Source of the DNA: Gillisella vitis
GTDB taxonomy: Bacteria; Pseudomonadota; Alphaproteobacteria; Rhizobiales; Rhizobiaceae
DNA length: 64,000 bases
Direction: 5' to 3'
Assembly: GCF_021559775.1 (NCBI RefSeq)
Contig: NZ_CP056047.1
Coordinates: forward strand, 186,001-250,000
This document shows positions 35,878 through 55,795 of this stretch, piece by piece. Both the position numbers and the translations under genes were made by a program. The notes below the pieces were generated by a model, which was not told where the DNA came from, did no database searches, and was given only the letters and a program-made list of their open reading frames with translations. Every line of letters begins with the position of its first letter. The stretch's first letter is position 1.

Positions 35878-35939
35878 AGCCAGACTATCCCCTAGAAATA
35901 GAGGGTTTATAAACCATAGAACAGCGTGTTCGCGCCTTG

Positions 35940-35960
35940 CGCCCCATCCTGGGCGTTTTT
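35940..35960 (+). terminator. Weak terminator after fliP
   Basis: CGCCC (35940-35944) pairs with GGGCG (35951-35955) around CATCCT, followed directly by TTTTT. The stem is only 5 bp. Its place 62 bases after fliP and before the first flagellin leader fits. Confidence 0.5.
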
Positions 35961-36061
35961 GGCGTTGTTAATGGTTCTTTTACCACTCCTGTTGAGCTAA
36001 CCTTAAAGCGGTGCGTGGTTATGTGCTGATTAGAGGCGAGTTAAACAAACTCTAGTTAATT

Positions 36062-36141
36062 GACATGATGTCGATCGCTTCTGCCGGTATATAGTCCGGC
36101 ATGTCCCTCTTTTGTATTGTGTAACCACAGGGACAGATCTG
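36062..36141 (+). promoter_or_regulatory. Flagellin 1 leader: conserved box and two stacked hairpins
   Basis: GACATGATG (36062-36070) corresponds to the GCATGAAGC box of the other copies. Hairpin I: GCCGG (36083-36087) with CCGGC (36096-36100). Hairpin II starts one base later: TGTCCCT (36102-36108) with AGGGACA (36129-36135). The right arm of II contains the ribosome site, 6 bases before the ATG. The same layout precedes the four other flagellin genes. Confidence 0.78.
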
Positions 36142-37104
36142 ATGACAAGCATCATGACCAACAATTCGGCCATTTCGGCACTTTCCACGCTGCGCACTAT
36201 CAGCTCGCAGATGGAAACCACGCAGAGCGCCATTTCTTCAGGCTACAAGGTCAAGGACGCATCCGATAATGCGGCTTACTGGTCGATTGCCACGACCATG
36301 CGCTCCGATAACAAGGCGATGTCTGCCGTGCAGGACGCACTCGGCGTCGGCGCTGCCAAGACGGATACGGCCTATACCGGCATGGAAGCCGCTATCGGTG
36401 TCGTCTCCGACATCAAGGCCAAGCTGGTTGCCGCCCGTGAACCAGGCGTGGACAAGGACAAGATCAACAAGGAACTGACCGAGCTGAAGAACCAGCTGAG
36501 TTCTGTTGCCAAGTCCGCGTCGTTCAATGGCGAGAACTGGCTGTATGACAACAGCGATTCCACTGGCACGACCCAGGAAATGGTTGGCTCCTTCGTTCGT
36601 GGGAATGATGGCAATGTCTCGATCAAGACGATCACCTTCGATACGACCAACTCGATCCTGATCAATGACGAGGCGGGTGACGGCGGTCTTCTGACAAAGG
36701 GAACGGTCGCAACCTATGCCTATGGTACAACGACGACGACGGCATCCTATTACCTGATTTCCTCTGTCGCGGGTAATACCAGTAGTGCGAGCGAAGTGAC
36801 GCTGACCTCGTCCACCACCGACGACGAGATTGATGGCATGGTTGCCTCGGTTGACAAGATGTTGTCCAGCATGACGGATGCTGCTGCCACCATCGGTGCG
36901 ACTAAGAGCCGGATCGAATCTCAGTCCAGCTTTGCGAAAGACCTCAGCGATACGATCGATGTCGGCATCGGCAAGCTCGTGGATGCGGACATGAACGAGG
37001 AATCGACCAAGCTGAAGGCGTTGCAGACGCAGCAGCAGCTGGGCATCCAGGCGCTGTCAATCGCCAATTCCAGCACAGAGAATGTTTTGTCGTTGTTCCG
37101 TTAA
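36142..37104 (+). CDS. Flagellin (copy 1)
   Basis: A 320-residue flagellin starting MTSIMTNNSAISALSTLRTISSQM at the ATG just behind an AGGGA ribosome site; the frame extends 10 codons further upstream without sense. The N-terminal D0/D1 helix contains QSAISSGYKVKDASDNAAYWSIATTMRSD. The C-terminal helix is DADMNEESTKLKALQTQQQLGIQALSIANSSTENVLSLFR. The central part (about residues 114-235) is almost base-for-base the same as copy 4, and close to copies 2 and 3. Like other rhizobial flagellins it is short, with a small outer domain. Confidence 0.96.
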   Translation: MTSIMTNNSAISALSTLRTISSQMETTQSAISSGYKVKDASDNAAYWSIATTMRSDNKAMSAVQDALGVGAAKTDTAYTGMEAAIGVVSDIKAKLVAAREPGVDKDKINKELTELKNQLSSVAKSASFNGENWLYDNSDSTGTTQEMVGSFVRGNDGNVSIKTITFDTTNSILINDEAGDGGLLTKGTVATYAYGTTTTTASYYLISSVAGNTSSASEVTLTSSTTDDEIDGMVASVDKMLSSMTDAAATIGATKSRIESQSSFAKDLSDTIDVGIGKLVDADMNEESTKLKALQTQQQLGIQALSIANSSTENVLSLFR

Positions 37105-37131
37105 TAGCCGACATAGGCATACGAAACCAAG

Positions 37132-37158
37132 AGGCCGGGCATTCAGTCCGGCCTTTTT
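37132..37158 (+). terminator. Terminator of flagellin 1
   Basis: AGGCCGG (37132-37138) pairs with CCGGCCT (37148-37154) and runs into TTTTT. It lies 27 bases after the stop. Confidence 0.85.
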
Positions 37159-37285
37159 AATTTTTCATTAATTTAACAATGTATTAACCAAGTAAAATAT
37201 GGATATTTTTATATAAATTAATCACGTAATTCTCCATTAGGAGATTTTTAACTGTGTCTGAGTTAAAACGGGCTATCGAAATCGG

Positions 37286-37390
37286 CAGGTTAACCTGTTA
37301 ATTGAATGTTAATCGCATGACGCGAGCCGAATTTCACCGGGGAATAGCCCGGAATGTCCCTTCCTATGTGTCATTCAAGGGGCAAGGCCT
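37286..37390 (+). promoter_or_regulatory. Flagellin 2 leader: palindrome, conserved box and two hairpins
   Basis: A 12-bp perfect palindrome CAGGTTAACCTG (37286-37297) lies upstream. The box GCATGACGC is at 37315-37323. Hairpin I: CCGGG (37337-37341) with CCCGG (37348-37352). Hairpin II: TGTCCCTT (37355-37362) with AAGGGGCA (37377-37384), the latter being the ribosome site 6 bases before the ATG. Confidence 0.78.
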
Positions 37391-38353
37391 ATGACGAGTA
37401 TCATGACGAACACTGCTGCGATTTCAGCACTTTCCACGCTGCGGTCGATCAGCTCCGATATGGAGACCACCCAGAGCCGGATTTCGTCCGGTTACAAGGT
37501 CGAGAGCGCGTCGGACAATGCGGCCTATTGGTCGATTGCCACGACGATGCGCTCGGACAACAAAGCGCTCGGTGCCGTTGAGGACGCCATCGGCCTTGGT
37601 GCAGCCAAGACGGATACGGCCTATACCGGCATGGAATCGGCAATCAGTGTCGTCTCCGATATCAAGGCCAAGCTGGTTGCCGCCCGTGAACCAGGCGTGG
37701 ACAAGGAAAAGATCAACAAGGAACTGGCCGAACTCAAGAACCAGCTGAGTTCTGTTGCCAAGTCCGCGTCGTTCAATGGCCAGAACTGGCTGTATGACAA
37801 CAGCGATTCCACTGGCACGACCCAGGAAATGGTTGGCTCCTTCGTTCGTGGGAATGATGGCAATGTCTCGATCAAGACGATCTCCTTCGATACGACCAAC
37901 TCGATCCTGATCAATGACGAGGCGGGTGACGGCGGTCTTCTGACAAAGGGAACGGTCGCAACCTATGCCTATGGTACAACGACGACGACGGCATCCTATT
38001 ACCTGATTTCCTCTGTCGCGGGTAATACCAGTAGTGCGAGCGAAGTGACGCTGACCTCGACGACCACTGACGATGAGATCGATGGCATGGTTGCCTCGGT
38101 TGACAAGATGCTGACCAGCATGACGGATGCGGCCTCGACTATCGGCGCGACGACCTCGCGTCTGAAGTTGCAGGATAGCTTCATCAAGGACCTGAGTGAC
38201 ACGATCGACACGGGTGTGGGCCGTCTGGTAGATGCGGACATGAACGAGGAATCGACCAAGCTGAAGGCGTTGCAGACGCAGCAGCAGCTGGGTATCCAGT
38301 CTCTGTCGATCGCCAACTCCAGCTCCGAAAACGTTATGTCGCTATTCCGCTAA
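37391..38353 (+). CDS. Flagellin (copy 2)
   Basis: A 320-residue flagellin, MTSIMTNTAAISALSTLRSISSDM, differing from copy 3 at only about seven positions, which marks a recent duplication or recent gene conversion. N-terminal (SRISSGYKVESASDNAAYWSIATTMRSDN) and C-terminal (MNEESTKLKALQTQQQLGIQSLSIANSSSENVMSLFR) polymerisation helices are complete. It is followed by a terminator, and 17 bases after the end of that by the IS element. Confidence 0.96.
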   Translation: MTSIMTNTAAISALSTLRSISSDMETTQSRISSGYKVESASDNAAYWSIATTMRSDNKALGAVEDAIGLGAAKTDTAYTGMESAISVVSDIKAKLVAAREPGVDKEKINKELAELKNQLSSVAKSASFNGQNWLYDNSDSTGTTQEMVGSFVRGNDGNVSIKTISFDTTNSILINDEAGDGGLLTKGTVATYAYGTTTTTASYYLISSVAGNTSSASEVTLTSTTTDDEIDGMVASVDKMLTSMTDAASTIGATTSRLKLQDSFIKDLSDTIDTGVGRLVDADMNEESTKLKALQTQQQLGIQSLSIANSSSENVMSLFR

Positions 38354-38382
38354 CATTCAAGTTCCACAGCATCGAAACATCT

Positions 38383-38416
38383 ATAGCCGGGTGATGAGCC
38401 CGGCTATTTTGTTTTT
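38383..38416 (+). terminator. Terminator of flagellin 2
   Basis: ATAGCCGGG (38383-38391) pairs with CCCGGCTAT (38399-38407), followed by a T-rich run to 38416. The IS left end begins 17 bases later, leaving this terminator intact. Confidence 0.88.
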
Positions 38417-38450
38417 CGTATCTGGAATGTGCTGACCTTGCCCCCAAGTT

Positions 38451-39640
38451 TTATCCAGTTTTGAGTTCGCTCCAGTGGTTTTGGGTTGCTGTATTCGGGG
38501 CGGTAGCGGCGGGTTGCGGTGCGGAGCCATTTCGGCTGCGCAGCACCGCATCACGTCGCGGGTTGATGGTCTGAGCGAACTCGGCCGGTGTCAGCCAGCC
38601 TAGACCAGAGTGTGGTCGATGATCGTTGTAGTCGCCTCGCCAGTTTGAAAGCCCTGCTCGAGCATGGTTCAGTGACGAGAAGAGCGTTTCATTCAAGAAC
38701 TCGTCGCGCAGCCGCCCATTGAAGCTTTCGATGAAGGCGTTCTGGATCGGTTTGCCGGGTGCGATGTAATGCCAATCGACCTTCGTCCGATCCGTCCATT
38801 GCAGGATCGCGTTGCTGGTGAATTCGCTGCCATTGTCACTGACGATCATCTTCGGCTTGCCTCGTCCCTCGATGATCCGCTCCAGTTCACGGGCAACCCG
38901 CAGGCCAGAAAGAGACGTATCGGCGACGAGGCCAAGGCATTCTCTGGTGCAATCATCGACGACGGTCAGCACCCGGAACCTGCGCCCATCGGTGAACTGA
39001 TCCGACACGAAGTCGAGGGACCAGCGGTCATTGGCGGCAAGCGGGATCAGCATCGGTGCTCGTGTGCCTATCGCCCGTTTCCGACCGCCGCGCTTGCGCA
39101 CCGTCAGCTTCTCTTCCCGATAGAGCCGGAAGAGCCGCTTATGGTTCACAAGGTGACCCTCACGCCTGAGCAGCACATGAAGTCGTCGATATCCAAAGCG
39201 GCGGCGTTCATGCGCCAGCGCCTTCATCCGCTCGCGAAGGTCATAGTCATCGCAGCGCCTGGTCTCGTAACGGATCGTCATCCGGCAAAAGCCGATGGCT
39301 TTACACGCCCGCCGTTCGCTCATCTGGTGGTGATCCATCAGATGAGCGACAGCTTTCCGCTTTGCTGCGGGCGTCACCACTTCTTTCCCAAAAGGTCTTT
39401 CAAAGCCGAATTGTCGAGCATCGCATCTGCCAGGAGCCTTTTCAGCTTCGTGTTTTCGTCCTCCAGCGTCTTCAGCCGCTTGGCTTCGGAAACTTCCATT
39501 CCGCCGAATTTGGCCTTCCATTTATAGATGCTGGCATCGCTGACGCCGTGCTTGCGGCAAAGCTCCGAGACCGGCGTGCCTGCCTCATGCTCCTTCAATA
39601 TCCCGATAATCTGCTCGTCTGTGAAACGGTTGCGCTTCAT
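38451..39640 (-). CDS. IS3-family OrfAB transposase (programmed -1 frameshift)
   Basis: OrfA is fused to OrfB by a -1 shift at GGGAAAG (plus-strand 39383-39389). The fused product has the OrfA helix-turn-helix and leucine zipper, then the OrfB rve integrase core. Catalytic residues are visible as [12 protein letters not shown] (first D), [12 protein letters not shown] (second D) and [18 protein letters not shown] (E). The HTH_21 segment [24 protein letters not shown] precedes the core. OrfB frame 38451-39389 is complete and ends in the left terminal repeat. Group assignment (IS407) is by protein similarity. Confidence 0.9.
39374..39640 (-). CDS. IS3-family transposase OrfA
   Basis: An 88-residue HTH_Tnp_1 protein: [47 protein letters not shown], then a heptad-repeat region ([34 protein letters not shown]) ending GKKW. 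It binds the element ends and acts as a regulator of transposition. A GAGAGGA ribosome site precedes the ATG. The C-terminal codons overlap the slippery site used to make the OrfAB fusion. Confidence 0.92.
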
Positions 39641-39704
39641 TCTCTGGTCCTCTCAATGGGACAGAGCTTACTTCAAAATGGATTAGTTCAGCGGGGCAAG
39701 GTCA

Positions 39705-40017
39705 GCGCCGTTCTACAATTCTGGACTGCTCCCGTTTCCGATCATATGAGCACATGACGGCTTCGGTTTTGGTTATCCTTTTGAATAAAACTCAAGTTGC
39801 TCGTTATCGATCAACGAATCACCATTTCATAAAATTTTTTGAATAATTTTCTCTCCTGATTTAGCAAGAATTAACCTAACTGGGTTTAAATAAAAACATC
39901 AAAACGACGGATTAATCTCTTGTTTAAAAAGATTAATGGCATGAAGCGGAGCCGTCGTTCGCCGGGAAGGAGCCCGGGATGTCCCTTCCGTTTCCAGTTC
40001 CATAAGGGGCAACGCCT
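39705..40017 (+). promoter_or_regulatory. Flagellin 3 upstream region with conserved leader
   Basis: This 313-base stretch lies between the IS right end and copy 3. It is AT-rich, with no gene seen. The box GCATGAAGC is at 39939-39947. Hairpin I: CCGGG (39962-39966) with CCCGG (39973-39977). Hairpin II: TGTCCCTT (39980-39987) with AAGGGGCA (40004-40011), occluding the ribosome site 6 bases before the ATG. Confidence 0.78.
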
Positions 40018-40980
40018 ATGACGAGTATTATGACGAACAATGCTGCGATTTCAGCACTTTCCACGCTGCGGTCGATCAGCTCCGATATGGAGACCACCCA
40101 GAGCCGGATTTCGTCCGGTTACAAGGTCGAGAGCGCGTCGGACAATGCGGCCTATTGGTCGATTGCCACGACGATGCGCTCGGACAACAAAGCGCTCGGT
40201 GCCGTTGAGGACGCCATCGGCCTTGGTGCAGCCAAGACGGACACGGCCTATACCGGTATGGAATCGGCTATCAGTGTCGTCTCCGATATCAAGGCCAAGC
40301 TGGTTGCCGCCCGCGAACCGGGTGTGGACAAGGACAAGATCAACAAGGAACTGACCGAGCTGAAGAACCAGCTGGGCTCTGTTGCCAAGTCCGCGTCGTT
40401 CAACGGCGAGAACTGGCTGTATGACAACAGCGATTCCACTGGAACGACCCAGGAAATGGTTGGCTCCTTCGTTCGTGGGAATGATGGCAATGTCTCGATC
40501 AAGACGATCTCCTTCGATACGACCAACTCGATCCTGATCAATGACGAGGCGGGTGACGGCGGTCTTCTGACAAAGGGAACCGTCGCAACCTATGCCTATG
40601 GTACAACGACGACGACGGCATCCTATTACCTGATTTCCTCTGTCGCGGGTAATACCAGTAGTGCGAGCGAAGTGACGCTGACCTCGACGACCACTGACGA
40701 TGAGATCGATGGTATGGTTGCCTCGGTTGACAAGATGCTGACCAGCATGACGGATGCGGCTGCCACCATCGGTGCGACCACATCACGTCTGAAGTTGCAG
40801 GATAGCTTCATCAAGGACCTGAGCGACACGATCGACACGGGTGTGGGCCGTCTGGTAGATGCGGACATGAACGAGGAATCGACCAAGCTGAAGGCGTTGC
40901 AGACGCAGCAGCAGCTGGGTATCCAGTCTCTGTCGATCGCCAACTCCAGCTCCGAAAACGTGCTGTCGTTGTTCCGTTAA
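40018..40980 (+). CDS. Flagellin (copy 3)
   Basis: A 320-residue flagellin nearly identical to copy 2. Differences include N for T at residue 8, VDKDKINKELTELKNQLGS in place of the E/A/S forms, E for Q before NWLYDN, A for S in DAAATIG, and L for M near the end. N- and C-terminal polymerisation regions are complete, with the same central cassette as copies 1, 2 and 4. The IS lies just upstream but its own leader is preserved, so expression is probably retained. Confidence 0.96.
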   Translation: MTSIMTNNAAISALSTLRSISSDMETTQSRISSGYKVESASDNAAYWSIATTMRSDNKALGAVEDAIGLGAAKTDTAYTGMESAISVVSDIKAKLVAAREPGVDKDKINKELTELKNQLGSVAKSASFNGENWLYDNSDSTGTTQEMVGSFVRGNDGNVSIKTISFDTTNSILINDEAGDGGLLTKGTVATYAYGTTTTTASYYLISSVAGNTSSASEVTLTSTTTDDEIDGMVASVDKMLTSMTDAAATIGATTSRLKLQDSFIKDLSDTIDTGVGRLVDADMNEESTKLKALQTQQQLGIQSLSIANSSSENVLSLFR

Positions 40981-41009
40981 GCCTAAGGGCATCGAGAATC
41001 ACCAAATGC

Positions 41010-41040
41010 ATAGCCGGGCGAAAGCCCGGCTATTTTTTTA
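41010..41040 (+). terminator. Terminator of flagellin 3
   Basis: ATAGCCGGGC (41010-41019) pairs with GCCCGGCTAT (41024-41033) around a GAAA tetraloop, followed by a T-run. It is very close in sequence to the copy 2 terminator. Confidence 0.92.
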
Positions 41041-41393
41041 TCTTGTTAGCAAAAAGCACCTTGGCGGACGTCTTATCGATTGTGCTGGTTCAGGGAATGG
41101 CGAAGTTTCATTCATCGTGGGAATAATCCAACCGTATTTCAAGTGGTTGATAAATAAGGAAAATTAAATTTCCCTATGATGGGAATGGAAGGCGCAAGCC
41201 TGCATACATCCTCGTTGTATGGTTAATATTTTTTCAAATTTATGTTTCGTTAACCATGCTGGTGTTTTCTGTGTTCACGAAAGCACTGGGCCGGACGAGC
41301 AGATACAGATCCGGCGGGCATGAAGCCGACCAATGTTACCGGTCTTAATCCGGTCTGTCCCTTTCCAAAACAGTCACCTCAAGGGGCACTTTT
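41041..41393 (+). promoter_or_regulatory. Flagellin 4 upstream region with conserved leader
   Basis: No gene is seen in this AT-rich gap. CGTTAACC occurs near 41249. An extra CCGGA/TCCGG pair lies near 41290-41315. The box GCATGAAGC is at 41318-41326. Hairpin I: ACCGG (41338-41342) with CCGGT (41350-41354), a base-pair swap relative to the other copies. Hairpin II: TGTCCCTT (41356-41363) with AAGGGGCA (41381-41388), ending 5 bases before the ATG. Confidence 0.78.
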
Positions 41394-42356
41394 ATGACGA
41401 GCTTGATGACAAATACCGCTGCAATTTCAGCACTTTCGACCCTGCGGTCGATTTCCGACGATATGAATTCGACACAGAACAGGGTTTCGTCCGGCTACAA
41501 GGTTGAAAATGCATCCGATAATGCGGCCTATTGGTCGATTGCCACGACGATGCGCTCGGACAACAAAGCGCTCGGTGCCGTTGAGGACGCCATCGGCCTT
41601 GGTTCCGCCAAGACGGACACGGCCTATACCGGCATGAAATCGGCGATCGATGTGGTTACCGACATCAAGGCCAAGCTGGTTGCCGCCCGCGAACCGGGCG
41701 TGGACAAGGAAAAGATCAACAAGGAGCTGGTTGAGCTGAAGAACCAGCTGAGTTCTGTTGCCAAGTCCGCGTCGTTCAATGGCGAGAACTGGCTGTATGA
41801 CAACAGCGATTCCACTGGCACGACCCAGGAAATGGTTGGCTCCTTCGTTCGTGGGAATGATGGCAATGTCTCGATCAAGACGATCACCTTCGATACGACT
41901 AACTCGATCCTGATCAATGACGAGGCGGGTGACGGCGGTCTTCTGACAAAGGGAACGGTCGCAACCTATGCCTATGGTACAACGACGACGACGGCATCCT
42001 ATTACCTGATTTCCTCTGTCGCGGGTAATACCAGTAGTGCGAGCGAAGTGACGCTGACCTCGTCCACCACCGACGACGAGATTGATGGCATGGTCTCAGC
42101 CGTTGACAAGATGCTGTCCAACATGACGGATGCCGCCTCGACCATCGGTGCGACGACCTCGCGCCTGGAGTTGCAGGATACCTTCATCAAGAACCTGAGC
42201 GACACGATCGACACGGGTGTGGGTCGTCTGGTGGATGCGGACATGAACGAGGAATCGACCAAGCTGAAGGCGCTGCAGACGCAGCAGCAACTGGGTATCC
42301 AGTCTCTTTCGATTGCCAATTCCAATTCCGAAAGCATTCTGTCGTTGTTCAAATAA
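41394..42356 (+). CDS. Flagellin (copy 4)
   Basis: A 320-residue flagellin, MTSLMTNTAAISALSTLRSISDDMNSTQNRVSSGYKVENASDNAAYW. The N-terminal 70 codons and the C-terminus (ANSNSESILSLFK) differ from copies 1-3. Codons from 41733 to about 42090 match copy 1 with a single base difference noticed, so the middle is shared by conversion. Complete and in frame. Confidence 0.96.
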   Translation: MTSLMTNTAAISALSTLRSISDDMNSTQNRVSSGYKVENASDNAAYWSIATTMRSDNKALGAVEDAIGLGSAKTDTAYTGMKSAIDVVTDIKAKLVAAREPGVDKEKINKELVELKNQLSSVAKSASFNGENWLYDNSDSTGTTQEMVGSFVRGNDGNVSIKTITFDTTNSILINDEAGDGGLLTKGTVATYAYGTTTTTASYYLISSVAGNTSSASEVTLTSSTTDDEIDGMVSAVDKMLSNMTDAASTIGATTSRLELQDTFIKNLSDTIDTGVGRLVDADMNEESTKLKALQTQQQLGIQSLSIANSNSESILSLFK

Positions 42357-42507
42357 GACGAGGGTTCGAAGGCGTTTACGCCTTTCTCCTGAAAATGAAA
42401 AAAACAAGCCACAGCAATGGCTTGTAGGGTTCACAAAGCCAGAGACGACTACCGTTGGGAGGCCAGAAATGGTCCTTGCCCGATGTGGTGGACCGACGAT
42501 GTTTATC

Positions 42508-42536
42508 AAAGCCGCAGCACCCGCTGCGGCTTTTTT
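42508..42536 (+). terminator. Terminator downstream of flagellin 4
   Basis: AAAGCCGCAGC (42508-42518) pairs over 11 bp with GCTGCGGCTTT (42523-42533) around ACCC and runs into a T-run. It lies about 150 bases after the stop. A second hairpin without a T-run (CAAGCCA/TGGCTTG, near 42410-42426) lies between, so the transcript has an unusually long 3' tail. Confidence 0.85.
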
Positions 42537-42761
42537 CATGCGTGCTTTTGTTTGGTCTTGAAAAAATTAGGAATTCGTTTACCTCTATTAAAAGTTTGAT
42601 AACCCCGTTAACCATTTGTTAACTAATTAAGGGTTAATAATCTGTGAACAACGTTGGGTTGGCTACCAGGGCAAGAGCGTAGCCAACGTGCATGAAGCAG
42701 ACCAGCGTTGCCGGTGTCTTCCATAAATCCGGCATGTCCCTTCACCTTCATGGGGCACTCT
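42537..42761 (+). promoter_or_regulatory. Flagellin 5 upstream region with conserved leader
   Basis: Repeated GTTAAC/GTTAACC motifs occur at 42605-42635. An extra hairpin TTGGCTAC/GTAGCCAA (42659-42666, 42679-42686) is present. The box GCATGAAGC is at 42690-42698. Hairpin I: GCCGG (42710-42714) with CCGGC (42729-42733). Hairpin II: TGTCCC (42735-42740) with GGGGCA (42752-42757), ending 4 bases before the ATG. Confidence 0.76.
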
Positions 42762-43724
42762 ATGACCAGCATTATGACCAATACCTCCGCTATGGCGGCT
42801 CTGCAGACTCTCCGTGGCATCGACCAGAACATGGAGACGACGCAGAACAGAATCTCGTCCGGCTATAAAGTCGACAGCGCCAAAGACAATGCCGCCTATT
42901 GGTCGATTGCGACCACGATGCGCTCCGATAACAAGGCGCTTTCCACGGTTCAGGATGCTCTGGGGCTTGCTGCTTCAAAAGCAGATACCGCTTATACAGG
43001 TCTGGACTCCAGTATTGACGTGCTCAGTTCGATCAAGTCCAAATTGGTTGCGGCGCGTGAACCGGGCGTGGACAAGGACAAGATCAACCAGGAAATCAAC
43101 GAGCTGAAGAACCAGCTCGCTTCCATTGCCGAATCCGCTTCATTCTCCGGCGAAAACTGGTTGTATAACGAATCGACCAATCCTCCCACCACCAAGGAAA
43201 TGGTTGCCTCCTTCAACCGCGCCAGCGACGGGACCGTATCGGTCACCACATTGAAGTTCAACACGTCCGAATCGACGCTGATCGATACCCAGAATGCTGA
43301 AAACGGCATCCTGACACGTACCACGGTCGCGACCTGGGCTTACGGTACGACCACCACGACGGGCACCTATTACCTGCTGGATGCGGAGTCGACGACGCCT
43401 GCCACTGGCACCGAAATTACCCTGACCACCGACATGTCCAACGACGATCTCGATGGCATGATTTCAGCCGTCGATAAAATGCTTCAGGATCTGACCGATT
43501 CTGCTTCGACCTTGGGTGCGATCAGCAGTCGTATCGATTCCCAGGATACGTTCGTTAAAAACCTCAGCGATACGATCGACAAGGGCGTCGGACGTCTGGT
43601 GGATGCGGATATGAACGAGGAGTCAACCAAGATCAAGGCGCTGCAAACGCAGCAGCAACTTGGCATCCAGGCGCTGTCGATTGCCAATACCAATGCCGAA
43701 AACATCCTGACGCTCTTCAAGTAG
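42762..43724 (+). CDS. Flagellin (copy 5, divergent)
   Basis: A 320-residue flagellin from the ATG at 42762 (MTSIMTNTSAMAALQTLRGIDQNM); the frame is open 18 codons further upstream, but that part is the leader hairpin. It keeps the polymerisation helices (QNRISSGYKVDSAKDNAAYWSIATTMRSDN and DADMNEESTKIKALQTQQQLGIQALSIANTNAENILTLFK). The centre (NWLYNESTNPPTTKEMVASFNRASDG) is clearly different from the cassette shared by copies 1-4. It is the outlier of the set, probably a distinct filament subunit. Confidence 0.95.
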   Translation: MTSIMTNTSAMAALQTLRGIDQNMETTQNRISSGYKVDSAKDNAAYWSIATTMRSDNKALSTVQDALGLAASKADTAYTGLDSSIDVLSSIKSKLVAAREPGVDKDKINQEINELKNQLASIAESASFSGENWLYNESTNPPTTKEMVASFNRASDGTVSVTTLKFNTSESTLIDTQNAENGILTRTTVATWAYGTTTTTGTYYLLDAESTTPATGTEITLTTDMSNDDLDGMISAVDKMLQDLTDSASTLGAISSRIDSQDTFVKNLSDTIDKGVGRLVDADMNEESTKIKALQTQQQLGIQALSIANTNAENILTLFK

Positions 43725-55001: not shown

Positions 55002-55349
55002 ATGTACCAGTTTTCCTACAATGAGATTATGGAGGATGGGGTTGCCGACGCTAAGGAGCGTGAGCGCCAGGTTCTCGACAGATCGATAGACTTGCTGAGC
55101 CAAGCCAGGACTGCCGGAAAATACGGTCGTGAAGGCATCGAGGCTCTGTACTATACGCGCCGCGTCTGGATCCGCTTCATTGAGGATCTCAAGCAGCCGG
55201 ACAACCAGCTTGGCACGGAACTTCGAGCCAATCTCATTTCAATTGCCCTTTGGATATTGAAGGAATGTGACCGCATCAGAAAGCGGGAATCCGACAATTA
55301 CCAAGGCATAATCGATGTAACCACCATCATCAGGGATGGACTTAAATGA
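55002..55349 (+). CDS. flaF: Flagellar biosynthesis regulator FlaF
   Basis: A 115-residue soluble protein. [39 protein letters not shown] and [19 protein letters not shown]-like ([24 protein letters not shown]), then [19 protein letters not shown], fit the FlaF family. In alphaproteobacteria FlaF is required for flagellin synthesis or secretion and works opposite FlbT. It overlaps flbT by 4 bases (ATGA). Confidence 0.95.
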
Positions 55350-55795
55350 AGAGCACCTTGCGAATCTCGCTGAAATCCGGGGAACGAATCTTTATCAATG
55401 GTGCCGTTTTGCGCGTCGATCGGAAGGTTGCCCTGGAATTCTTGAACGATGTGACATTTCTGCTGGAAAACCACGTGCTCCAGCCGGAAGACGCCAATAC
55501 CCCGCTACGCCAGCTCTATTTTATCGCCCAGATGATCCTCATCAATCCGGAAGGCAAGGAACAGACGCTGACCATGTTCCGCAAGTCGATCGTGATGTTG
55601 CTGTCCTGCTTCCAGGATGACGAGATCCTGGCTGAATTGAAGCGGATCGACGCTCAGGTCGTATCGGGGCGCGCCTTCGATGCATTGAAGGCCATTCGCG
55701 GTCTTTATCCGCTTGAAGATCGGATCCTGAACAACCAGGAAATGGCACCGGCAACGATCGAACAGATCCGCAAGGAGATTGCGCCATGGCGGTAG
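55346..55795 (+). CDS. flbT: Flagellin mRNA regulator FlbT
   Basis: A 149-residue protein: [50 protein letters not shown] and [36 protein letters not shown], the FlbT signature. In Caulobacter FlbT binds the flagellin fljK mRNA leader and lowers its stability; in other alphaproteobacteria it can act positively. Its natural targets in this window would be the five flagellin leaders with paired hairpins. It overlaps flaF and flgD. Confidence 0.95.

Follow-up and report, generated by a model that had tools for sequence, protein, structure and literature searches.

A conserved structured leader RNA before the flagellin genes of a Gillisella vitis flagellar cluster and of other Hyphomicrobiales

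The stretch analysed here, i.e., 64,000 nucleotides (nt) of Gillisella vitis DNA (NZ_CP056047.1, positions 186,001 to 250,000, called the window), harbours a flagellar cluster of the Rhizobiaceae type that includes five flagellin genes. In this flagellar system, every flagellin mRNA has a structured leader that is conserved and some 115-125 nt long. As a structure, it is a well-supported leader RNA family without an Rfam entry, preserved through matched base changes in many related bacteria of soil and plants, and it is probably a control element switching filament-protein production. In the explanation that we favour (probability about 0.6), the structured leader, a CtrA-type transcription start, recognition through helices P1-P4, output through helix P5, and FlbT as the most likely reader would act jointly.

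Architecture and covariation of the flagellin leaders

The leaders of 96 flagellin-type genes were read in 61 sampled genomes of the family. P1 closes a three-way junction with P2, which is variable, and P3; P4 follows directly, and then P5. P3 is a mini-hairpin, GGC-AUGAn-GCC, of 3 bp with a nearly invariant loop. P4 is CCGG...CCGG, and P5, UGUCCC...GGGRCA, spans the ribosome-binding segment a few nt before the AUG. Most of the 96 leaders share one order, i.e., GCATGAnGC, linker, CCGG-loop-CCGG, 1-2 bases, UGUCCC, loop, GGGRCA, few nt, AUG. The near-invariant bases are GCAUGA.GC, CCGG, CCGG, A.UGUCCC, and GGG.CA.

An earlier sequence-only reading of the window had described two stacked hairpins, hairpin I (P4) and hairpin II (P5), before each flagellin ATG. 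Both are real and were read before all five ATGs, but they make up only the 3' half of a five-helix leader, and the stronger 5' half, P1-P2-P3, was missed. The arms that it gave were found as described. Those of hairpin I are GCCGG/CCGGC in copies 1 and 5, CCGGG/CCCGG in copies 2 and 3, and ACCGG/CCGGT in copy 4, with loops of 8, 6, 6, 7, and 14 bases in copies 1-5. Hairpin II pairs TGTCCCT with AGGGACA in copy 1, TGTCCCTT with AAGGGGCA in copies 2-4, and TGTCCC with GGGGCA in copy 5; its loops are of 11 to 20 bases and its right arm lies 6, 6, 6, 5, and 4 bases from the ATG. All five helices were present in the RNAfold minimum-energy folds of copies 4 and 5. A leader almost identical to copy 5 was seen in Agrobacterium vitis CG118 (L297).

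The covariation evidence comes mainly from P1 and P2, which were tested together with P3 in the 92 of 113 leaders where GCATGA and CCGG were located. The P2 arms differ widely between leaders and still pair, directly upstream of GCATGAnGC. The anchored helix score of P2 was 14.40 against 8.64 +/- 0.42 when left segments were swapped between leaders, and a strong P2 was found in 62 of the 92 against a mean of 14 in swaps. P1 is formed by the linker between GCATGAnGC and hairpin I, paired with the sequence 5' of P2; its score was 16.64 against 12.80 +/- 0.29, and strong helices numbered 69 against 31.9. Taking one leader per genome (n=55), the scores were 13.6-13.9 against 8.8-9.1 for P2 and 16.3-16.6 against 12.9-13.2 for P1. 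A replicate was obtained by scanning the genomes of the GTDB collection for GCATGANGC..CCGG..CCGGNNTGTCCC, a pattern blind to P1 and P2; at least 120 stretches matched. The first 80 of these supplied 105 distinct leaders as the covariation set, which scored 14.95 against 9.11 +/- 0.43 for P2 and 16.23 against 13.14 +/- 0.27 for P1. The closing pair of P3 was Watson-Crick in 74/92 leaders against 52.7 after shuffling. Covariation across genomes, which the sequence-only reading had proposed as its check, is significant for the RNA element and strongest in P1 and P2.

It is scarcely credible that these inverted repeats are DNA operators, e.g., for CtrA or Rem, and not RNA. Some P2 arms read GTTAAC, resembling CtrA half-sites, and hairpin II of copy 1 is a perfect inverted repeat. 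However, the P2 3' arms have at least 40 distinct outer pentamers in 62 strong helices, with loops of 3 to 31 nt, and the P1 strands flank two other helices.

CCGG-N3-16-CCGG occurs in 78 of the 96 leaders, and the flanks of P4 were tested in these. The flanking pair that adjoins CCGG was Watson-Crick in 42 leaders against 22.0 shuffled (A-T 28, G-C 8, C-G 4, T-A 2). The paired substitutions earlier claimed for hairpin I hold at this pair, which covaries well, but the CCGG core hardly varies and the pairs two to four outward gave no covariation signal in the 78 leaders. In 1.5-Mb genomes the core was altered on both arms with pairing kept (GCCGA/TCGGC in L026, GCTGC/GCAGC in L140; L numbers denote loci and G numbers genomes).

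In hairpin II, the compensating change that had been proposed does keep the pairing, but GGGGCA/GGGACA is a G-U to A-U change on one side only. One pair of the inner arms has a U-A/U-G exchange, and otherwise these arms hardly vary; no both-side change was found in the inner six pairs of 66 distinct leaders. The helix score (n=77) was 15.68 against 14.91 +/- 0.16 with left arms swapped and 9.47 with right segments shuffled. The conservation of UGUCCC exceeds what pairing with GGGRCA needs. This favours a partner RNA, i.e., a trans-acting small RNA or an Hfq-dependent duplex that would pair with AUGA or AUGUCCC and open or close P5, an idea which we rate as very improbable.

Masking of the ribosome site by hairpin II, also claimed earlier, is common and was seen in the RNAfold ensembles of the window copies, where the ribosome segment is mostly paired, in copy 3 with a different partner. 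However, it is not constant. The P5 stem has been lost, with P1-P4 kept, in seven leaders, each of a different genome (L031, L054, L184, L186, L188, L192, L378), and in L042 and L034 an alternative stem leaves the purine tract free. Because P5 is lost or replaced where P1-P4 are kept, P1-P4 seem to be the conserved core, with P5 as an output that can be exchanged.

Two loop motifs were also noted. One group of leaders shares the P2 loop AGGGCAA (L002, L034, L036, L059, L068, L072, L075). The P5 loop shares TATTTCGT across genera (L009, L014, L016, L069, L074), and this may possibly be an extra contact site.

Distribution, target genes and catalogued RNAs

Three models were used for searching. 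The seeds of R1 were ten leaders, taken from nine other genomes and excluding the window sequences, those of R2 include the window leaders, and the full-length R3 was built on 11 leaders with window copy 3 among them. With R1, the E values of the five window leaders ran from 1.5e-10 to 1.1e-17, and the next match in the window had 5e-5. In the whole source genome, R2 gave five strong matches (E 8e-19 to 5e-14), followed by one at 8e-5. This sixth, weak match (L115, C1:398953-399029) has no flagellin after it, and no clear gene was read there. Two extra flagellin-like genes lie outside the cluster in the source genome, L006 (530.9 kb) and L008 (2.22 Mb); neither has the leader element by eye, and R3 found none at both loci.

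In the family sample, Flagellin_N was present in 50/61 genomes, and the element was found in 46 of these 50; the other four (G022, G024, G033, G045) were examined in part. The pattern scan gave 167 matches among those listed, of which 7 were set aside as too near a contig end. A flagellin follows 156 of the 160 assessable matches among those listed, and about 1.6 chance matches were expected in the full scan by a hand estimate. By title, among the at least 120 stretches listed, all but two (Caulobacter and Paracoccus) belong to Hyphomicrobiales or to alpha-/proteobacteria of unstated order. The genera listed include Rhizobium, Agrobacterium, Sinorhizobium/Ensifer, Bradyrhizobium, Mesorhizobium, Roseibium, Hyphomicrobium, Microvirga, and others, as well as Brucella cytisi and Ochrobactrum, where the element is present in flagellin leaders. 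Four of the 160 matches have no flagellin after them: L239 (Caulobacter sp. BP25), L310 (Paracoccus), L279, and L317. L239 and L310 were taken as chance matches, because R3 had no match in the former and E 0.03 in the latter.

In the order, R2 matched 47/150 genomes at E up to 1e-3 and 22/150 under 1e-8. Matches under 1e-8 stood before flagellins at all 20 readable loci. Six readable loci with weaker matches, E 5e-7 to 4e-5 (L143, L144, L146, L147, L149, L150), were not before flagellins and were rejected, so that the tally of 47/150 overstates the distribution. R3 matched 35 of 199 order genomes at 1e-3, and the 19 matches read comprised 17 before flagellins and 2 before chemoreceptor genes. 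G123, G155, and G182 had no genome-wide match, yet a weak R3 match was found in their first flagellin leader. Outside the order, R2 matched 13 genomes of the class, source genome excluded, at E up to 1e-5. These were rejected as instances of the element: R3, applied to 12 of the 13 loci, reached no better than E 4.5e-5 (L151) and 0.0027 (L155), and these two loci, which were read by eye, show no flagellin, L151 lying inside an aldolase-like frame. The element belongs to Hyphomicrobiales.

Flagellins are not the sole target. Full or P1-P4 elements were found before methyl-accepting chemotaxis protein genes in four genomes (Table 1).

Searching of the window with Rfam 15 at gathering scores gave two tRNAs only. 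In 35900-42900 at E up to 10, ten matches were obtained, none credible, and no riboswitch was among them, the cyclic di-guanosine monophosphate type included. A riboswitch, in which the three-way junction would bind a small-molecule ligand, e.g., a second messenger of motility, has in its favour a layout of aptamer and expression platform and a portable element that also occurs before chemoreceptor genes. Against it stand the lack of an Rfam riboswitch match, the few conserved unpaired bases, and the confinement to one flagellar lineage of one order, which is expected for a dedicated protein partner. We consider it quite improbable.

The nearest catalogued RNA is flg-Rhizobiales (RF01736), which is listed in PMC2864571. 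It is likewise a structured RNA of Rhizobiales before flagellar genes, but its consensus, UUGGGAGA, differs. The RF01736 model had no match in the source genome, nor in the window leaders at E up to 10. It matched 18/150 genomes of the order (3 over the curated cut-off), all in other families, and the 12 matches read precede flgF/flgG-type frames, named by eye, whereas the window leaders precede flagellins. The two are different elements. No title among those listed in searches of the open-licence literature deals with the present leader; older subscription papers on rhizobial flagellin genes may hold earlier notice.

Other systems resemble the leader in part. According to excerpts of published work, the fljK leader of the alphaproteobacterium Caulobacter crescentus is likewise a post-transcriptional control point in a flagellin 5' untranslated region (UTR), with FlbT and FlaF. 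No convincing R3 match was found in 20 flagellin loci outside the order (best E 0.14), 44-60% identical to a Caulobacter FljK sequence, with the fljK leader itself lying outside this comparison. In CsrA-FliW-Hag of Bacillus and Campylobacter, an RNA-binding protein couples flagellin translation to assembly, as is proposed here, and FlbT/FlaF were suggested as an analogue of this control in a passage of PMC4894983; the profiles of FlbT and CsrA, however, do not match. ROSE thermometers are leaders that sequester the Shine-Dalgarno segment, with a stem that covers the ribosome site as P5 does. They differ in that no such Rfam match was found here and P5 is dispensable in some lineages where the upstream junction is kept.

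Feature coordinates and neighbouring genes

The features are collected in Table 1. A transposase gene with rve and HTH_21 domains, which we take to be IS3-like, lies between flagellins 2 and 3 (38451-39521, minus strand), and leader 3 downstream of it is intact. In flagellins 1-4 (36142-42356) a central segment is nearly identical, whereas the ends and leaders are divergent; in the translations, flagellin 5 does not share this segment. Near-identical centres with differing ends and leaders suggest recent gene conversion among flagellins 1-4.

Table 1. Leader helices, genes and related features; window coordinates, except for the chemoreceptor leaders, which are given by locus. Paired arms are separated by a slash.
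Feature	Coordinates	Strand	Remarks
Leader of flagellin 1	36026..36141	+	R3 match 36026-36144, E 1.7e-13; R1 E 8e-16
Leader 1 P1	36032-36039/36075-36082		AGAGGCGA/TCGCTTCT
Leader 1 P2	36038-36042/36048-36052		ambiguous; GAGTT/AACTC in RNAfold, other register in R3
Leader 1 P3	36062-36072		GACATGATGTC
Leader 1 P4 (hairpin I)	36083-36087/36096-36100		
Leader 1 P5 (hairpin II)	36102-36108/36129-36135		
Flagellin 1	36142..37104	+	Pfam Flagellin_N and Flagellin_C
Leader of flagellin 2	37274..37390	+	R3 E 2.4e-15; R1 E 1.1e-17
Leader 2 P1	37278-37286/37326-37335		one bulge
Leader 2 P2	37288-37294/37308-37314		GGTTAAC/GTTAATC
Leader 2 P3	37314-37324		CGCATGACGCG
Leader 2 P4	37337-37341/37348-37352		
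Leader 2 P5	37355-37362/37377-37384		
Flagellin 2	37391..38353	+	open frame; Flagellin_N match
Leader of flagellin 3	39897..40017	+	R3 E 5e-29 (R3 seed); R1 E 6e-17 (leader not in model)
Leader 3 P1	39903-39910/39952-39959		AACGACGG/CCGTCGTT
Leader 3 P2	39911-39918/39930-39937		ATTAATCT/AGATTAAT
Leader 3 P3	about 39938-39948		closing pair non-standard
Leader 3 P4	39962-39966/39973-39977		
Leader 3 P5	39980-39987/40004-40011		
Flagellin 3	40018..40980	+	open frame; Flagellin_N match
Leader of flagellin 4	41276..41393	+	R3 E 1.2e-18; R1 E 2.8e-14
Leader 4 P1	41282-41289/41330-41337		imperfect
Leader 4 P2	41290-41295/41310-41315		GCCGGA/TCCGGC
Leader 4 P3	41317-41327		
Leader 4 P4	41338-41342/41350-41354		
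Leader 4 P5	41356-41363/41381-41388		
Flagellin 4	41394..42356	+	open frame; Flagellin_N match
CtrA-like box, leader 5	42608..42623	+	TTAACC ATTTG TTAAC; exact fit to TTAA-N7-TTAAC, 82 nt before GCATGA
Leader of flagellin 5	42646..42761	+	R3 E 7.5e-14; R1 E 1.5e-10
Leader 5 P1	42649-42657/42702-42710		CAACGTTGG/CCAGCGTTG
Leader 5 P2	42658-42666/42679-42687		GTTGGCTAC/GTAGCCAAC
Leader 5 P3	42689-42699		TGCATGAAGCA
Leader 5 P4	42710-42714/42729-42733		42710 able to pair in P1 or P4
Leader 5 P5	42735-42740/42752-42757		
Flagellin 5	42762..43724	+	open frame; Flagellin_N match
flaF	55002..55349	+	Pfam PF07309, E 6e-34
flbT	55346..55795	+	candidate leader reader; Pfam PF07378, E 8e-43
Chemoreceptor leader	L317:1518-1651		Beijerinckiaceae metagenome-assembled genome
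Chemoreceptor leader	L279:4265-4369		Methylosinus sporium
Chemoreceptor leader	L374		G141
Chemoreceptor leader	L375		G171

Transcript start, candidate reader and mechanism

CtrA-like boxes were searched upstream of the leaders. The box of copy 5 fits exactly (Table 1), whereas those of window copies 1-4 have one mismatch, and their starts lie between -78 and -95. In the first set, TTAA-N7-TTAAC boxes, with one mismatch allowed, are concentrated 76-85 nt 5' of GCATGA (30/77 boxes); in the second set, 52/105 CtrA-like boxes fall in the bins -85 and -80. The 5' strand of P1 starts 36-45 nt before GCATGA in 67/106 strong helices. Since the boxes start some 40 nt 5' of P1, P1 is probably where the RNA begins, and the start is expected upstream of hairpin I, in agreement with the sequence-only reading. 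In Sinorhizobium meliloti, flaA, flaB, and flaC are under direct CtrA control according to a passage of PMC4433202, and an excerpt of PMC3616915 lists CtrA motifs upstream of mapped starts for flaA, flaC, and flaD.

Two other roles of the P3 motif were discarded. GGCATGAnGCC as a promoter -10 box was dropped, because P1 and P2 flank it and the CtrA-like boxes lie about 40 nt 5' of P1. An upstream reading frame from the AUG of the P3 loop was rejected: this frame is open past the flagellin start in 44/92 leaders against 40/92 and 2/92 for the other two frames, and relative to that start its phases are distributed 37/29/26.

Without any dedicated reader, the leader might mainly stabilise the message, as a structured 5' end shielding the abundant flagellin mRNA against RNase E and RppH. 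The probable position of P1 at the extreme 5' end, the need for flagellins in bulk, and the loss of P5 in some leaders are in line with this. However, the near-invariant AUGA loop, CCGG, and AUGUCCC exceed the needs of a protective stem, and the P3-P4 spacing is nearly fixed at 21-22 nt in 82/92 leaders. Such a role by itself seems unlikely.

A dedicated reader belongs to the explanation favoured here, and FlbT is a plausible candidate from the gene context. The gene, placed by the sequence-only reading about 12 kb downstream, starts about 12.6 kb after copy 5. In the 61-genome sample, flbT and flagellin occurred together in 50 genomes, and one had flbT only. All of the 15 element-bearing genomes outside the window's genus that were searched had flbT, with both on one contig and 12-34 kb apart in 13 and on different contigs in 2. 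Four genomes have two FlbT proteins (G091, G189, G167, G194), and in these the element was found only beside the FlbT that is 40-48% identical to that of the window. A tblastn search with the window protein did not detect their second FlbT, which is 22-23% identical in the two of these genomes for which it was aligned. In four other genomes without the element, FlbT showed 28-30% identity in two and no match in two. Binding of FlbT to flagellin 5' UTRs in Caulobacter and Brucella is proposed in a passage of PMC4347634.

In an AlphaFold model (mean predicted local distance difference test score 85), FlbT has a beta part at the N-terminus besides a helical part. For the helical domain, eight FliS-type chains were among the best 50 VIA rows (Z 7.7-8.9, root-mean-square deviation 1.9-2.7 over 77-84 residues), values in the usual range for helical bundles. 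No Foldseek match had E under 0.001. Other rows were not used, i.e., influenza nucleoprotein as the best Foldseek row (E 0.6 and worse) and Rv2531c as the top two of VIA (Z 9.2). Searched against PDB sequences, the FlbT profile had a single match (E 0.2). Homology to CsrA was considered on a short sequence resemblance but found no support in the profile comparison, which gave a probability of 0.3%.

In the favoured explanation, a CtrA-type promoter would drive transcription from the 5' edge of P1. Recognition would reside in P1-P4, with the conserved AUGA, CCGG, and AUGUCCC, and output in P5, a replaceable stem that would mask the ribosome site or set the mRNA lifetime. FlbT, with FlaF and a flagellin as partner, would be the most likely reader and would hold or release flagellin translation according to the completion of the hook-basal body, as proposed for Caulobacter. 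The same module may be used by some chemoreceptor genes.

Several points weigh against this explanation. No strong P2 was found in 30/92 leaders and no strong P1 in 23/92. The closing pair of P3 was weaker in the replicate (67/105 against 56.8, equal to the highest among 5000 shuffles), and the pair outside it is not formed (7/92 against 14.2 shuffled); the silent outward pairs of P4 and the seven leaders without P5 belong here as well. RNAfold minimum-energy folds gave all five helices nowhere but in copies 4 and 5: copy 1 lacked P4, paired with upstream sequence, P2 of copy 2 was refolded, and copy 3 had P2 and P4 only. The shuffle and swap nulls leave some relatedness in place. The loci of alignments A6 (63 loci) and A8 (84 loci) were picked for having shown the element, and R3 matched 83 of 84 element-chosen loci, other families of the order included (exception L028). 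On the supporting side, A8 reached a covariation of 0.426 in 100 distinct leaders, against 0.142 shuffled and at most 0.104 with partners slid, with both-side changes in 27/31 pairs; it was, however, fitted to its own structure, and the argument is therefore carried by the P1 and P2 swap tests. Second flagellins of tandems lack the element at L043, L044, L052, L185, L187, and L189. As for the reader, FlbT is also present in element-less systems, i.e., the second system of the four two-FlbT genomes and FlbT-bearing order genomes without a match. The association of FlbT and element fits co-specialisation and, equally, inheritance of whole clusters. The effects of FlbT also disagree, being mRNA decay in Caulobacter and activation in Brucella in the passage of PMC4347634.

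A bolder form of the favoured explanation can be offered tentatively, with the odds against it. The three-way junction and CCGG hairpin would be an assembly-checkpoint receiver for late motility genes, i.e., flagellins and, in some lineages, chemoreceptors. The beta domain of FlbT would read the leader and its FliS-like helical domain would hold unsecreted flagellin, so that free flagellin would shut its own mRNA until export. RNA and FlbT would be co-specialised in the lateral-type flagellar lineage of Hyphomicrobiales.

The timing of flagellin synthesis in alphaproteobacteria without sigma-28 and FlgM is a long-open question, and the leader is a concrete and testable RNA target for it. The model groups concerned are Sinorhizobium, Agrobacterium, and Bradyrhizobium. 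If P5 and P1-P4 are separate modules, the opposite effects of FlbT in two species could be explained.

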